A stretch of DNA of 64,000 bases, taken from assembly GCF_002283555.1 (NCBI RefSeq), contig NZ_MVOI01000002.1:1-64000 (forward strand), written 5' to 3'. The stretch comes from Rubrivirga sp. SAORIC476. GTDB taxonomy: Bacteria > Bacteroidota > Rhodothermia > Rhodothermales > Rubricoccaceae. Shown in pieces: positions 49,657-56,614 of the stretch. Numbering within the stretch: the stretch's first letter is position 1; each line of letters opens with the position of its first letter. Below the pieces are notes generated by a model, which saw only the letters and a list, made by a program, of their open reading frames with translations, was not told the DNA's origin and searched no databases. The translations under genes were made by a program, and so were the position numbers.

Positions 49657-50984
49657 GTCGTCGGTGGGTACCGTTGGGGGTCGGAGCCGTGCTGGTGCTC
49701 TCCCTCGTGATGACGGCTCGCATCCCCGAGGCAGGTGCCGGGTGGCGGGTCGCGTTCGTCGCCATCCACCTCGTGGGCAGCGCAGGCCTGTTCGTGTATC
49801 TGCGAAGGGCGACCGTATCGGTGCGTCGACTGATCGGTGTGGCCGTCGTGCTGCGCTTGCTGGCGCTCCCCATGCTCCCGACGCTCTCCGACGACGGATA
49901 CCGGTACCTGTGGGATGGGCTGGTCGCGCAAGAGGCGCAGGTATCTCCATACGACTATCGCCCCTCTGACCCTGTTCTCGCCCCGTGGCAGAGCGAGACG
50001 GTGTTCGAGGCCATGAACTCGCCGGCGTACTACTCGGTGTACCCCCCCGCATCCCAGGCGGTGTTCCGTCTGTCCACACTCGGGTACCGGACGGTAGGAT
50101 GGGAAGCGAGCTGGTGGATGCTGAAGCTGCTGCTCGTCCTGACCGAAGGCGTAGGAATTGTCGCTTTGGCTCGGCGGGTCGGGGCAACGCGAGCGGCGTA
50201 CTACGCCTGGAGTCCGCTCGCTGTGGTCGAGATCGCGGGCCAGGGGCACACCGAGGCGCTCGTCGTCGCGGGACTCGGGGCCGCGCTGTGGGCTGGAGCC
50301 ACGCGCATGCCCTGGGCCTCGGTCGGGGTCATGGTGGCGGCCCTCGCCAAACTGTACCCGTTCGCGCTACTTCCGATGGCATGGCGACGCGATGGGGTGT
50401 GGGGCTTTGTGGCCTCCGCGGCCCTGGCCGTGCTGCTCTCCGCCCCGGTCTGGTCGCCCGACGCGGGGAGCCACGTTCGGGAGTCGCTGGGGTTGTTCCT
50501 GGGCACCCTTGATGCCTTCGCGGCACCGTACCGGGCGTTGAAAGCGCTCCTGTATCCGCTCGTCGGTGAAGCCGCCGGGCGGTGGGCGAGCGGTGCATTG
50601 ACCGCCGTCTTCGCGAGTACCGCCGGTGTCGCTCTGCTGGTCGACGACGGGACCCGACGCGGCATGCTGCTCTCGCTCGCTCTCGTGGTGGTGGGGTTCA
50701 CGCTTACAGCGGCCACCCTGCACCCCTGGTACTGGCTTCCCCTGCTGTTCCTGTATCCGTTATTGGAAAACCGTTGGATCTGGTGGATCTGCGCAACATC
50801 AACCCTCGGATACATCCCCTACGTGCTTCCTGGAGCCGATCTGCTGGTGCTCACCGTCGGGTGGGGTGGGGCCGCCGTGCTGGCCTGGAAAGACCGACCT
50901 CAGCCTGCAGGCCATGGGGCGAGCTCCGCGAGCAGCGAAGCGGCCGTCGTGGCTGACGCGTCGACCCAGCGTGCCTCGGGGTAG
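49653..50984 (+). CDS. GT-C-type membrane glycosyltransferase (GT87/DUF2029-like)
   Basis: 443 residues from the ATG at 49653 (ATGA overlap with the RsbW-like gene). It has about ten hydrophobic segments. After the second helix comes LSDDGYRYLWDGLVAQ, the acidic loop of GT-C enzymes that use polyprenyl-phosphate sugars; other family-like parts are NSPAYYSVYPPASQAVF and LHPWYWLPLLFLYPL. It probably transfers a mannose-like sugar outside the membrane. Its last 85 bases overlap miaA on the other strand. Copy 5 of the AT-rich word lies within. Confidence 0.85.
   Translation: MSRRWVPLGVGAVLVLSLVMTARIPEAGAGWRVAFVAIHLVGSAGLFVYLRRATVSVRRLIGVAVVLRLLALPMLPTLSDDGYRYLWDGLVAQEAQVSPYDYRPSDPVLAPWQSETVFEAMNSPAYYSVYPPASQAVFRLSTLGYRTVGWEASWWMLKLLLVLTEGVGIVALARRVGATRAAYYAWSPLAVVEIAGQGHTEALVVAGLGAALWAGATRMPWASVGVMVAALAKLYPFALLPMAWRRDGVWGFVASAALAVLLSAPVWSPDAGSHVRESLGLFLGTLDAFAAPYRALKALLYPLVGEAAGRWASGALTAVFASTAGVALLVDDGTRRGMLLSLALVVVGFTLTAATLHPWYWLPLLFLYPLLENRWIWWICATSTLGYIPYVLPGADLLVLTVGWGGAAVLAWKDRPQPAGHGASSASSEAAVVADASTQRASG
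50757..50766 (+). repeat. AT-rich motif copy 5, CCGTTATTGG
   Basis: A 9-base match to the core (CCGTTATTG) in the GT-C gene, in a different reading frame from copies 1, 3 and 4: CCG TTA TTG encodes Pro-Leu-Leu. Confidence 0.4.
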
Positions 50985-51814
50985 CGGCGGTACCAGGTGA
51001 GCTGTCGCTTTGCGTACCGGCGGGAGTTGCGCTGGATCAGCCGGATCGCCTCGTCGAGATGTCGCTCCCCATCCAGGACGGGAAGCAGTTCGCGGTACCC
51101 GATCGTCGCCTCCAGCGTCGGCCGGGCATGGGGCGATGCCTCGAGGATCGACTGCACTTCGTCCATCAGACCCGCCTCGATCATGTCAAGCACTCGCGCG
51201 TCGATGCGGCGGTACAACTCGTCCCGAGGTCGCGTCAGGACGACCAGGATCGCTGGATGGGGAGGAGCCACGCCTTCCCACGCGGTAGACGGCCGACGCC
51301 CGGTTTCGCGCCACAGACCGACGAATCGAATCAATCGGTGAGTCTTGGATGGGTCCAACGTGTCAGCGGCTACCGGATCGGCCGTTCTCAACTCCTCATA
51401 CAGACGCTCGGCGCCGTCGGGCTGGGCGACCTCTTCCAGAAGCTGGGCTTCGAGCGATGGGGAGACAGCGGGGAGGTCGGCCAGCCCCTCCAGAAGTGCA
51501 TGCACGTACAGCGTCGATCCTCCGGCGACCACGACGGGGTGTTGCCTCTGCTCAATGTCCGCTATTGCCTTCTGGGCAACTTCCAAAAAACCACCCGCAG
51601 ACCAGCGGACGCCCGGGGCCAGAATGTCCACGAGGTGGTACGGATGCTGCTCCCTCTCGTCATCCGACGCTTTCGCCGTTCCGATGGTCATCCCGCGATA
51701 GACCTGACGGCTGTCGGCCGACAGGATCTCCGCCCCGACGATTCCTGCCACCTCGTGGGCGAGTGACGACTTGCCGACGCCGGTCGGCCCGGCGATGATG
51801 AGGAGCGGGCTCAC
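50900..51814 (-). CDS. miaA: tRNA dimethylallyltransferase
   Basis: 304 residues from a GTG at 51812-51814. It adds a dimethylallyl group to A37 of tRNAs reading U-starting codons. The P loop is IIAGPTGVGKSSLAHEV, followed by LSADSRQVYRGMTIGTAK, PYHLVDILAPGV and VVVAGGSTLYVHALLEGL, all diagnostic. The C-terminal part (ATIGYREL, RRYAKRQLTWYRR) is typical. It is the last gene of the minus-strand operon (integrase, oxidoreductase, moeB), overlapping moeB as GTGA. The 3' end runs 85 bases into the convergent GT-C gene. Confidence 0.96.
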   Translation of the reverse strand: MSPLLIIAGPTGVGKSSLAHEVAGIVGAEILSADSRQVYRGMTIGTAKASDDEREQHPYHLVDILAPGVRWSAGGFLEVAQKAIADIEQRQHPVVVAGGSTLYVHALLEGLADLPAVSPSLEAQLLEEVAQPDGAERLYEELRTADPVAADTLDPSKTHRLIRFVGLWRETGRRPSTAWEGVAPPHPAILVVLTRPRDELYRRIDARVLDMIEAGLMDEVQSILEASPHARPTLEATIGYRELLPVLDGERHLDEAIRLIQRNSRRYAKRQLTWYRRYPEARWVDASATTAASLLAELAPWPAG

Positions 51815-52878
51815 GACGTGGCGTTCCAGGCCTCCATGCCGCCGCGAAGCGACACGGCTCGAAATCCGCGATCCCGGAGAGCCTGTGCGCCGCGTGCCGA
51901 CCGGCCGCCCGAGGCGCAGTACACCACGATGTCCCGGTCACGGACGTCGTCCAGTTCGAACGCTCGGATGTCTAGCTGCCCGAGCGGGATCAGCCGGCCG
52001 CCCAGGTTGTCGGCGTGGTGTTCGGTGGCCTCGCGCACGTCGACGAGAACTGGACCGGCACCGGTGACGAGTCGTTTTCGGAGATCGCCGACAGTGATCT
52101 CGCTGACGACCTCCGCCTCCGGAGTTTGCAGCTCTCCAGAACCGCATGCCGGACAGCCGGGGTCCTTCTCGACCGCGATCTCGCGGAACTCCATCGTCAG
52201 CGCGTCCACCAGAAGAAGGCGCCTGACGAGCGACGTGCCGATCCCAAGAATCCACTTGATGGCTTCGGCGGCCTGAATCATGCCCAGGAGGGAAGGCACG
52301 ACGCCCAGAACTCCGCCTTCTTCGCAGTTCGGAATCAGGTCTGGCGGAGGCGGCTCAGGGAAAAGACACCGGTAGCACGGCCCCGTTTCCGTGCCGAACA
52401 CCGAGGCCTGTCCCGAAAACCGACTCACAGAGGCAAAGATGTTCGGCGTGCCGGTGCGCACAGACGCGTCGTTGACCGCATAGCGTGTCGGGAACGTGTC
52501 CGAACCGTCCAGCACGAGGTCGTAGCCTCCGATGAGGAGATCCGCGTTGGCGGCCGTGAGCCGGGCCGCGTGCGCCTCCACTGTGACAGAAGGGTTGATC
52601 AGGCGGAGACGCTCCTGGGCCGCCTCGATCTTCGGCCGCCCCACGTCGGGAGTCGCGTACAGGGTCTGCCGGTGCAGGTTCGTGAGGTCCACGTCGTCGA
52701 ATTCGACGATCCCAATTCTGCCCACCCCTGATGCAGCGAGATGATGCAACACGGGTGCCCCGAGCCCGCCCGCGCCGACCACCAGAACGGAGGCCTCTGA
52801 CAGGTGGGCCTGGCCCTCGATTCCGATCTCGGGCAGCCGGATCTGACGGGCGTAGCGGAGAGTGTCTGGAGCGGTCAT
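51811..52878 (-). CDS. moeB: MoeB/ThiF-family adenylyltransferase with rhodanese domain
   Basis: 355 residues. The E1-like domain (~1-250) has [46 protein letters not shown], the Arg and Asp of [16 protein letters not shown] and two C-x-x-C zinc pairs (YRCLFPE area and PGCPACG). The C-terminal rhodanese domain (~265-355) has [17 protein letters not shown] and the active Cys in [18 protein letters not shown]. This is the MoeZ/MOCS3-type fusion that adenylates and sulfurates MoaD/ThiS-like proteins. Overlaps both neighbours by 4 bases. Confidence 0.92.
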
Positions 52879-54407
52879 GGTGTGGAATCGAGAAACTTCA
52901 AAACGACACGTGCGGCATTCCGCCCGGATGCACCCATGATGCCGCCACCAGGATGCATGCTGGCACCTGTCAGGAAGAGGCCGTCGACCGGGCCCCGGTA
53001 GTCACTGAGGCCCATGGAAGGCCGCAGGCTGAACATCTGGTCGATGGTCATCTCAAGGTGCATCACGTTACCTCGGAACAGGCCCAGTTCTCGCTCCAGC
53101 CACAGGGGGTGCTGGAACAGCTTGCCCACGACCGAGGCCTTGGTCCCGGGTGCATACGGCTCGAACGTGTCGAGTATCCGATCTGCCACCTCATCCTCGA
53201 TCGCGTCCCAGGTGCGTCCGCCGGTCATCTCGTATGGGAAGTACTGGGCCCAGAGCCAGAGCACCTCGCCGCCCGGCGGAGCCAGGGTGTCGTCGACCGC
53301 AGAAAAGCTCATCCCGACGATGGGCGGGTCTTCGGCTGGATGTCCCTTCAGATAGTCGGCATACGCGTCGTGGATCTGCTGGCGGTCCCGACAGACGAGT
53401 TGGAGCGCCGTTCGCGACTCGAGCCCGGGACTGGCGGCATACTGCAGCGGCCGGTCGAGCGCAAGCCTCAGGATGGCTCCAAAGCCGTTCCCGACCCGCA
53501 TGGTGTCTGCCTCGGCAGGCCGGTGGACAGACGGGAGCAGCTTGTCGAGGGTCTCCAGGACGTGGGTCCCGGACAGAACGGCCTTTGCGAGGACAGGCTC
53601 GCCATCGACCTCGACTCCGACCACCTTTCCCCGCTCGACCAGGAGCCGCTCTACGGGGGACGAGGTAAACACGTCGCCGCCGTGGGCGCGGATCATGGCC
53701 GCCAATGCTTTGGTGAGTCCCCCCGATCCTCCCCGTGGTCGGGCAACGCCGCTCTCATGGTAAAGCGGGTGCCAGAGCAGAAACGGCGCGCTCAGCGTCT
53801 CGGTAGGAGGGGGGCCGCTCTGCGCCGCCATCCAGACGAGCGGCGTCTTCACCTTCTCCTCGGTGAAGTACTGGTCCACCACCTCGCCGTATGGCTTCGT
53901 GATCGCCGTCAGCGCTCGCTGCCAGTCGAGATCGGCGGAGGGACCGAAGGCGAACGCCTTGCCGAGTTCGAGAGGACTGGGGGTCGACAGAAAGACGTCG
54001 CGGACGGTCTGGGAGAAGGGCCGCCACGTGTCCACGAAGCGTCGGTAGCGCTCGCCTTCGCCGGGGAACTGTTGGTCTAGCCCCTGGCACGTCTTGTCGA
54101 CATCTCGATGGATGAATACAGACGATTCGTCTTCGTACGGGGCGAAGAACAACGGGTCTACTTCGAGGTAGTCGAGTCCGTAATCCTCTAAGCCCAACTC
54201 TTCAACAATCGGGGTCAGCCGGATGAGGATGTGCGCGGAGCCCCCGAGGTCGAACTGGTAGCCCGGAACATGCTCCACCGTGGACACGGCGCCGCCCACG
54301 ATGGCCCGCCGTTCGAAGACGCCGACCCGGTACCCGGCCTTGGCCGCGTAGGCGGCGGAGATCAGGGCATTGTGGCCCGCGCCGATGACGATGAGGTCGT
54401 AGTCCAT
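52875..54407 (-). CDS. FAD-dependent oxidoreductase, phytoene-desaturase-like
   Basis: 510 residues. The N-terminal FAD site [34 protein letters not shown] continues with [24 protein letters not shown], and [28 protein letters not shown] closes the flavin site near the end. This is the arrangement of the CrtI/PYROXD2 group; the substrate could be a carotenoid, a fatty compound or another hydrophobic one. It is the second gene of the operon, starting directly after the integrase stop (TAAATG) and overlapping moeB by ATGA. Confidence 0.9.
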
Positions 54408-55361
54408 TTAGAGGTCGATGAAGTCAGCCGCGCTGTTCGCGAGCTTGTCTCGCTGGTGGATGTATCGCATGGTCGTCTCTATGTTTTTGTGACGGGCGTG
54501 CGACTGGACTTGCTGAAGAGATGCGCCACCTTCTATGGCGAGGGTGCACCCCGTATGGCGAAGAGTGTGGGCTCCCACCTTGTTGCGGATACCGGCCGCT
54601 TTGCTCAGCCCGCTGACGATCTTGTAGATCGCCGAGCCGGAGAGTCTCTCACCTCGATTTCGATTCGACACAGACCGCCAGACGGGCCCTGATATGTATC
54701 CGTTATTACGTATGTACACATTGAGTCGGGTGGCAACATGTCTCGGGACCTTGACGATCTGATTGGCACCACCTTTCGCTCGCTGGAGGGTGAGGATCGC
54801 GTGGCCGTCCATCGCGCCGAGATCCTCCACATTCAGGGCTGCAGCCTCAGAACGGCGCAGTACGCAGTGCAGGAGAGTCAGAACGAGCGTGTAGTCGCGC
54901 TCACCCGACGGCTTCGACAGATCGATCGCATCCATCATTCTGGATGCCTGTTCGCGGGTAAGGACGGTCACCAGTCGGTCGGCATCCGAAGACTTCGGAA
55001 TGCGTCGGACGAGGTGTCGATCGGCGGGATTGAGGTCGATGAAGCCGAGGGCTGCGAGCCATCCGAAGAACCCCCGGAGCGATGCGAGAAAGCGTCGCTG
55101 TGTCGCAGGGCTTTTGCCTTGAGAGTCCAGAGCATGAAGCGCCTCGTTGACGTCCGTAAACGTCACGGTCGCGGCCATCTCCAGCGTGACCGTGGCCGAG
55201 CCGAAAAATGACTCGATGTCTCGGGCGTAGGCGCGGCGTGTGTTCTCGCGATCGTACCGGAGCAGAAACAGCGGAACCAGATCGGACTGGGCCGTGAACG
55301 CGCGGCCGAGGCGGGCGTGCACCGTCGGCAGGGTTACCGCTGAGGGGTCGGGGGCATCCAT
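54408..55361 (-). CDS. Tyrosine recombinase/integrase (XerC/D-like)
   Basis: 317 residues. The N-terminal SAM-like core-binding domain (~20-115) is followed by the catalytic domain with Arg in CVLRRSEAAAL, Lys in AKGGANQIVKVP, His-x-x-Arg in AHTLRHTGCT, His in ARHKN and Tyr in TTMRYIH, so it is complete and should be active. It has no recognisable mobile-element neighbours. It heads a minus-strand operon (oxidoreductase, moeB, miaA). Copy 6 of the AT-rich word lies in it. A palindrome (55429) lies 68 bases before its start. It may be an Xer-type chromosomal recombinase or a remnant of an element. Confidence 0.92.
   Translation of the reverse strand: MDAPDPSAVTLPTVHARLGRAFTAQSDLVPLFLLRYDRENTRRAYARDIESFFGSATVTLEMAATVTFTDVNEALHALDSQGKSPATQRRFLASLRGFFGWLAALGFIDLNPADRHLVRRIPKSSDADRLVTVLTREQASRMMDAIDLSKPSGERDYTLVLTLLHCVLRRSEAAALNVEDLGAMDGHAILTLQRAKGGANQIVKVPRHVATRLNVYIRNNGYISGPVWRSVSNRNRGERLSGSAIYKIVSGLSKAAGIRNKVGAHTLRHTGCTLAIEGGASLQQVQSHARHKNIETTMRYIHQRDKLANSAADFIDL
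54700..54711 (+). repeat. AT-rich motif copy 6, CCGTTATTACGT
   Basis: An 8-base match to the core (CCGTTATT) with AT-rich flanks (ATGTAT before, ATGTACACA after), antisense to the integrase and in a third frame. Confidence 0.35.
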
Positions 55362-55428
55362 TGCGATCTCATCCGGGGGACGGACACGTTACGCAGAGCC
55401 GGTGCGCTTCGGCAGCCCTGCGCCAGTT

Positions 55429-55446
55429 CGATAATTAGTGTTATCG
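55429..55446. promoter_or_regulatory. Palindrome CGATAATTAGTGTTATCG
   Basis: Arms CGATAA and TTATCG flank a 6-base centre in the gap between the integrase and the ABC ATPase gene. The AT-rich content is unlike its surroundings. Two short arms around a 6-base centre resemble a tyrosine-recombinase crossover site, but a repressor operator or promoter for the integrase is equally possible. Confidence 0.4.
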
Positions 55447-55525
55447 GGAATTGGGGACAGGTCAGTGCTCCTGTCGGTGGGTTGCCCCGCCTCGGCAGCT
55501 CGGCGGCCTGCGCTCGATCCAGCGT

Positions 55526-56614
<1,089 letters not shown>

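Follow-up and report, generated by a model that had tools for sequence, protein, structure and literature searches.

The analysis of a 64,000-nucleotide stretch of Rubrivirga sp. SAORIC476 (contig NZ_MVOI01000002.1, positions 1 to 64,000; hereafter the window) points to a tyrosine recombinase gene and an adjoining dif-like site that in all likelihood form a chromosome dimer resolution module served by a single recombinase, provisionally named XerR/difR. As far as sequence comparison reaches, what is established is an intact active site, a conserved and partly symmetric site linked to the gene, a terminus position in relatives assembled as single contigs, and the lack of a canonical XerC/XerD pair. 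The initial annotation had raised a chromosomal Xer-type system with a palindrome as its crossover site, and this proposal is supported by the missing canonical pair, the conserved palindrome, and the terminus position in relatives. It had named as contrary evidence a normal XerC/XerD pair including the window protein, together with a unique and unconserved palindrome; neither was found.

The recombinase gene (provisionally xerR, 54408..55361, minus strand) encodes 317 aa, and its TAA stop codon abuts, at 54408/54407, the ATG of a FAD/NAD(P) oxidoreductase gene (52875..54407, minus strand), a junction that had been described correctly. Beyond it lie, on the same strand, the gene of a ThiF/MoeB-type protein with a rhodanese domain (51811..52878) and miaA, which encodes an IPP transferase (50900..51814). 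All three are recurrent neighbours in relatives: the oxidoreductase, moeB-type, or miaA gene occurs within the 1.5-kb flank in 27/30 loci, our own counted, and none of them does in L022, L026, and L028, so that gene and site sit in a stable chromosomal neighbourhood. A MalK-type ABC ATPase gene (55526..56614, minus strand), which lies beyond the site, is given for context only. The recombinase had been called lone, which holds for its surroundings: ARAGORN detects no tRNA anywhere in the window, as had been stated, and none of the four nearest genes is an IS or phage gene by its Pfam matches. The description fails genome-wide, since the draft assembly (4.48 Mb, 19 contigs, completeness 97.5%) holds ten Phage_integrase matches, one of which is a paralogue with 48% identity to the window recombinase and intact catalytic residues (L004, 1084-2085 on G000:C3); because of this paralogue, the word "single" is itself not certain.

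The catalytic residues of the window protein, reported initially as Arg, Lys, His-x-x-Arg, His, and Tyr, are indeed kept, with all six (R, K, H, R, H, Y) aligning with E. coli XerD positions 148/172/244/247/270/279. Its SAM-like and Phage_integrase domains are the pair that makes up simple Xer-type recombinases, so the protein combines the R-K-H-R-H-Y set with the SAM-like plus catalytic architecture that marks this type. Across the family, R, R, H, H, and Y are present in 35/35 rows (paralogue L004 included) and K in 34/35, the partial L045 and the duplicate L053 being left out of the count. An AlphaFold2 model reached a mean pLDDT of 83.2, with residues 293-305, which include the catalytic Tyr, below 50; its Foldseek matches include XerA at the top, XerH, the Tn1549 integrase, an integron integrase, lambda Int, XerD, and Cre, with TM-scores of about 0.4-0.7, and these matches to a predicted structure establish the fold and do not separate Xer types. 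Named database homologues with at least 51% identity come from Rhodothermales, Rhodothermia, Rhodothermaceae, Roseithermus, Rubrivirga, or unplaced Bacteroidetes (a Rubrivirga homologue shares 71% over residues 121-317), after which identity falls to 34% or less. The suggested phylogeny against XerC and XerD was run as a quick tree, in which the family forms one clade (SH-aLRT 99) that includes neither canonical XerD nor E. coli XerC. This tree took 65/110 rows, leaving out 20/30 Bacteroidota XerD, 18/30 catalytically dead-type, and 7/35 family rows; it was built without XerH, XerS, XerL, or Bacteroidota XerC rows, and the two rows entered as "XerA" are incomplete proteins from Methanolobus, so labelled because of their source.

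Upstream of the gene, the palindrome CGATAATTAGTGTTATCG (core CGATAA-N6-TTATCG, 55429..55446, no strand) has the 6-base arms and 6-base centre first noted and is separated from the ATG by 67 bases. With up to 2 mismatches allowed, the core motif occurs once in the window, and shuffled sequences gave a mean of 0.43, with at least one occurrence in 33/100; the 18-mer on its own is not beyond chance. It goes beyond chance because it is conserved in relatives and extends to a 28-bp dif-like site (55424..55451, no strand), in which CAGTTCGATAA and TTATCGGGAAT flank the 6-bp spacer TTAGTG (plus strand). The window thus holds, beside the gene, the near-palindromic site of about 28-31 bp by which a single-recombinase dif is recognized. 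GC content is 36% in the site and 69% in the window.

Comparison of the locus across relatives, as had been advised, found the palindrome conserved, with the exact core GATAA-N6-TTATC upstream of the gene, read in gene orientation, in 20/32 loci (own included) at distances of 20-638 bp. This count rests on a scan for the core motif, used instead of a general palindrome scan that often put GC-rich repeats first. It omits L031, whose gene is cut by a contig end, and, from the homologue search, L056, with 25 upstream bases, the repeats L055 (= L022), L058 (= L027), L053 (= L019), and L060 (= L031), and homologues under E 1e-16 from other phyla. The exact core is absent upstream in 12/32 loci: L038-L042, which make up five of the six loci of genus g6 (L018, of the same genus, has the core); L020 and L032; L034, where match coordinates place a site about 4 kb upstream of the gene; L036, which adjoins a XerD-like gene; L037, which comes with no upstream sequence; and L054 and L059, where the core is present with one mismatch. 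By match coordinates, G020, G028, G040, and G052 also have the core, immediately ahead of the gene segment that was matched. Somewhere in the genome, the core was found in 45/60 genomes, with a reversed control at zero in 37/60 and non-zero in 23/60 (up to 7, in G038), so a lone core occurrence means little in the latter genomes.

The symmetry extends in part beyond the core. The two arms match at 13/13 positions in L018 and L025 and at 11 or 12 in five more loci; in the genus of the window, they differ beyond the core. The base beside the core is C/G across the arms in 11/19 sites and T/A in 7, complementary in 18/19 against a shuffled mean of 9.9, and the outer arm pairs 5/28 and 7/26 also exceed shuffles. 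The outer pairs 1/32, 2/31, 3/30, and 6/27 have no excess symmetry (1/32, 2/19 with 4.5 in shuffles; 6/27, 10/19 with 12.1). When the eight outer pairs are pooled for 17 distinct sites, 74/136 match, against a shuffled mean of 58.3 (4/5000 shuffles as high), a contrast whose independence is overstated because the sites are related by descent. The arm statistics used 19/20 sites, L019 being cut by a contig end.

The position of the site in relatives is consistent with a role at the terminus. Expressed as a contig fraction, the distance from dnaA to the site is 0.531 in G015, 0.476 in G019, 0.572 in G003, and 0.537 in G004 (the last two on contigs that are not whole genomes), and 0.605 in G032 and 0.459 in G041, where two DnaA matches each make the origin less sure. 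In G024 and G010, which have no site near the gene, the gene itself lies at 0.476 and 0.467 from dnaA. GC skew was read in sampled 20-kb intervals. In G019, the interval that contains the site has +0.016 and the sampled interval after it −0.112; the corresponding values in G015 are +0.036 and −0.012, and some stray intervals there have the other sign. In G032 and G041, which belong to one genus, the skew has already changed sign about 50-80 kb ahead of the site. In the four single-contig relatives (G015, G019, G032, and G041), the site is therefore at the skew switch or 50-80 kb from it. Sampled windows of G003, of the same genus as our strain, gave no clear skew switch, and the skew of the 64,000-nucleotide window itself does not switch at the site, which in this draft genome is not placeable relative to the terminus.

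The distribution of canonical recombinases adds to this picture. With the XerD model at E 1e-60, all 53 phylum genomes sampled outside the order gave one match over the cut-off plus a second match, the latter identified by the XerD model alone, and 0/8 genomes inside the order, own included, gave any match. The XerD cut-off was likewise reached in 0/60 relatives (own included). The window family, at 140 bits or more, is present in 36/60 relatives, again with our own, and 24/60 have no match that strong; in a class sample, 34/117 genomes match the family at E 1e-25, and all 34 belong to the same order. A XerD-like match above 165 bits occurs in 13/60 relatives, two of which (G008 and G057) also carry the window family; relatives with neither type perhaps reflect gaps in draft assemblies or divergence. 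Ten XerD-like loci were read, and six have an upstream palindrome (L043, L044, L045, L046, L049, and L050), five of the form CATAA-N6-TTATG and one close to it, so that a XerD-like gene with such a palindrome is perhaps a second linked gene-plus-site replacement. The window-family and XerD-like genes adjoin in both genomes that have the two: in G008 (L036/L045), they are divergently oriented with a palindrome between them, and in G057 (L044), the family copy is divergent.

Further recombinases of the genome bear on whether one protein acts alone. Two or three strong family matches were also found in G014, G047, G053, and G059; the congeners of our strain, G002 and G003, each carry a single family match scoring at least 140 bits. 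A catalytically dead Xer homologue (L007, G000:C3:810895-811821) fits the XerC model best at 119.8 bits, far under its cut-off, and 57/60 relatives have L007-type matches, with identity as low as 33-38% in five. In all 30 L007-type rows read, none of which comes from those five relatives, both active-site arginines are replaced (the one by S in 27, A in 2, and T in 1; the other by T in all 30), and the Tyr is replaced in 5/30; the 27 rows used for alignment share 111 invariant columns. At E 1e-20, the L007 family also appears outside the order, in 7/53 phylum genomes (one match has 30% identity, another an internal stop codon), so its distribution does not tie it to the window system, and a role for L007 at the 28-bp site is speculation. 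The idea that the dead Xer is a positional descendant of XerD was not supported: a lipoyl E2 gene adjoins the L007 type in 15/30 loci, as opposed to 0/30 canonical XerD loci. A literature search for papers on XerD-like proteins without catalytic residues found none. Elsewhere in the genome, near the start of G000:C4, a recombinase (L001) that presumably resembles an integron integrase, judging by a motif, is followed by short tandem repeats.

The search for palindrome copies across the genome, which had been recommended, yielded one further copy of the 28-mer. The pattern CAGTTCGATAA-N6-TTATCGGNAAT, written after both copies had been seen, gave two matches in our genome with up to 3 mismatches allowed; both proved exact, and the reversed control had none. 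The second site (L012, C17:1233-1260) equals the window site at 21/22 arm bases and has another spacer. It lies on a contig of 4425 bases, 2755 of them read, in which the genome domain search found no recombinase domain; the contig stretch matched no plasmid record, and four of its ORFs had no Pfam match. By its size, C17 would be a plasmid, which would then use the second site; mobile elements are known to carry dif mimics (PMC9765430).

Against this background, other explanations were weighed. It is quite unlikely that the order dropped XerC/XerD and came to rely on one active recombinase with a conserved but dead, L007-type structural or regulatory partner at the site, which small plasmids borrow to resolve themselves. 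A related view, about as unlikely, is that the window protein fills the XerD role in a two-recombinase system whose other half is L004 or the L007 protein. The near-universal L007 type in relatives and its affinity for the XerC model speak for it, as do the presence of L004 and the unequal arms in this genus; set against these are the loss of both active-site arginines in 30/30 L007-type rows, the occurrence of the L007 family outside the order in genomes that carry canonical XerD and a second match, the one family match each in G002 and G003, and the seven loci whose arms match at 11-13 of 13 positions.

The remaining alternatives fare worse. That the protein is a mobile-element integrase and the palindrome its attachment site is very unlikely: broad PHROG integrase families match the protein at 149 and 122 bits and some genomes have two or three copies, but the chromosomal neighbours recur in 27/30 loci, the window has no tRNA, and the site lies opposite dnaA in relatives. 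A domesticated element recombinase, another initial suggestion, is possible as a remote origin. The palindrome could in principle be an operator of the recombinase gene only, with the crossover site elsewhere, given that 12/20 loci have 20-88 bp between the core and the gene; this we regard as scarcely credible, since the core is 582 and 638 bp from the gene in G015 and G019, where the skew turns at the site, and since the second copy is on C17, where no recombinase domain was found. Equally implausible is a phase-variation invertase that flips a nearby segment. The link of a recombinase to a short palindrome had suggested such a phase-switching enzyme, a proposal that gained no support: the window has no second copy of the palindrome (up to 2 mismatches), and its single counterpart elsewhere in the assembly sits on a different contig and has a different spacer.

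The single-recombinase reading can be set beside known systems. The classical dif of XerC/XerD has an 11+6+11 layout and an ATAA-N6-TTAT core, both shared by the window site. That system uses two proteins, and the window protein misses the canonical cut-offs of XerC (NCBIfam equivalog TIGR02224, 118.5 bits vs 335.15) and XerD (TIGR02225, 123 bits vs 329.6). XerA/dif of archaea likewise has one recombinase, and XerA is the best phmmer match as well as the top Foldseek match, yet the score of 111.8 bits is under the XerA cut-off of 220 (NF040815). Such systems are described in streptococci and lactococci, Helicobacter and Campylobacter, archaea, and Legionellales (PMC5357621, PMC9765430). XerS/difSL of streptococci and lactococci resembles our module in pairing a single recombinase with a site that adjoins its gene, and differs in the 11-bp central region of difSL (PMC5357621), compared with 6 bp here, and in the XerS model, which the window protein matches at 55.5 bits vs a cut-off of 267 (NF003462). 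XerH/difH of Helicobacter and Campylobacter also pairs one recombinase with a site near its gene, but XerH has 354-362 aa (PMC5357621) and its phmmer match to the 317-aa window protein (41.6 bits, E 7.1e-10) is weaker than that of XerA or XerD. XerL/dif of Legionellales, compared by description, shares the one recombinase, the long inverted-repeat arms, and the terminus position, and is unlike the module in that gene and site are >400 kb apart in L. pneumophila (PMC9765430). As no tested family cut-off is passed, we treat the module, provisionally named, as one more form of the single-recombinase type; its mode of action would be that of XerS/difSL and XerH/difH.

A 2011 survey based on XerCD profiles predicted dif in 19/19 single-chromosome Bacteroidetes (PMC3025954); neither Salinibacter nor Rhodothermus appears in its main text, and since its supplement could list them, novelty is not secured. 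Searches of the open literature found no paper on such a single-recombinase system in Rhodothermales.

In the proposed mechanism, the recombinase would bind both half-sites of the adjacent 28-bp site. A chromosome dimer has two such sites, and four recombinase copies bound to them would carry out strand exchange across the 6-bp spacer; at the terminus, this would resolve the dimer into two monomers. The sufficiency of one protein and control by FtsK are presumed. Within the order, the module would stand where the sampled phylum genomes have canonical XerD and a second Xer. If this is true, it would show again that the XerC/XerD pair is replaceable by a linked gene-plus-site module, here in an order whose sampled phylum relatives (53/53) keep canonical XerD and a second Xer, and a compact recombinase with a 28-bp site would be on offer.
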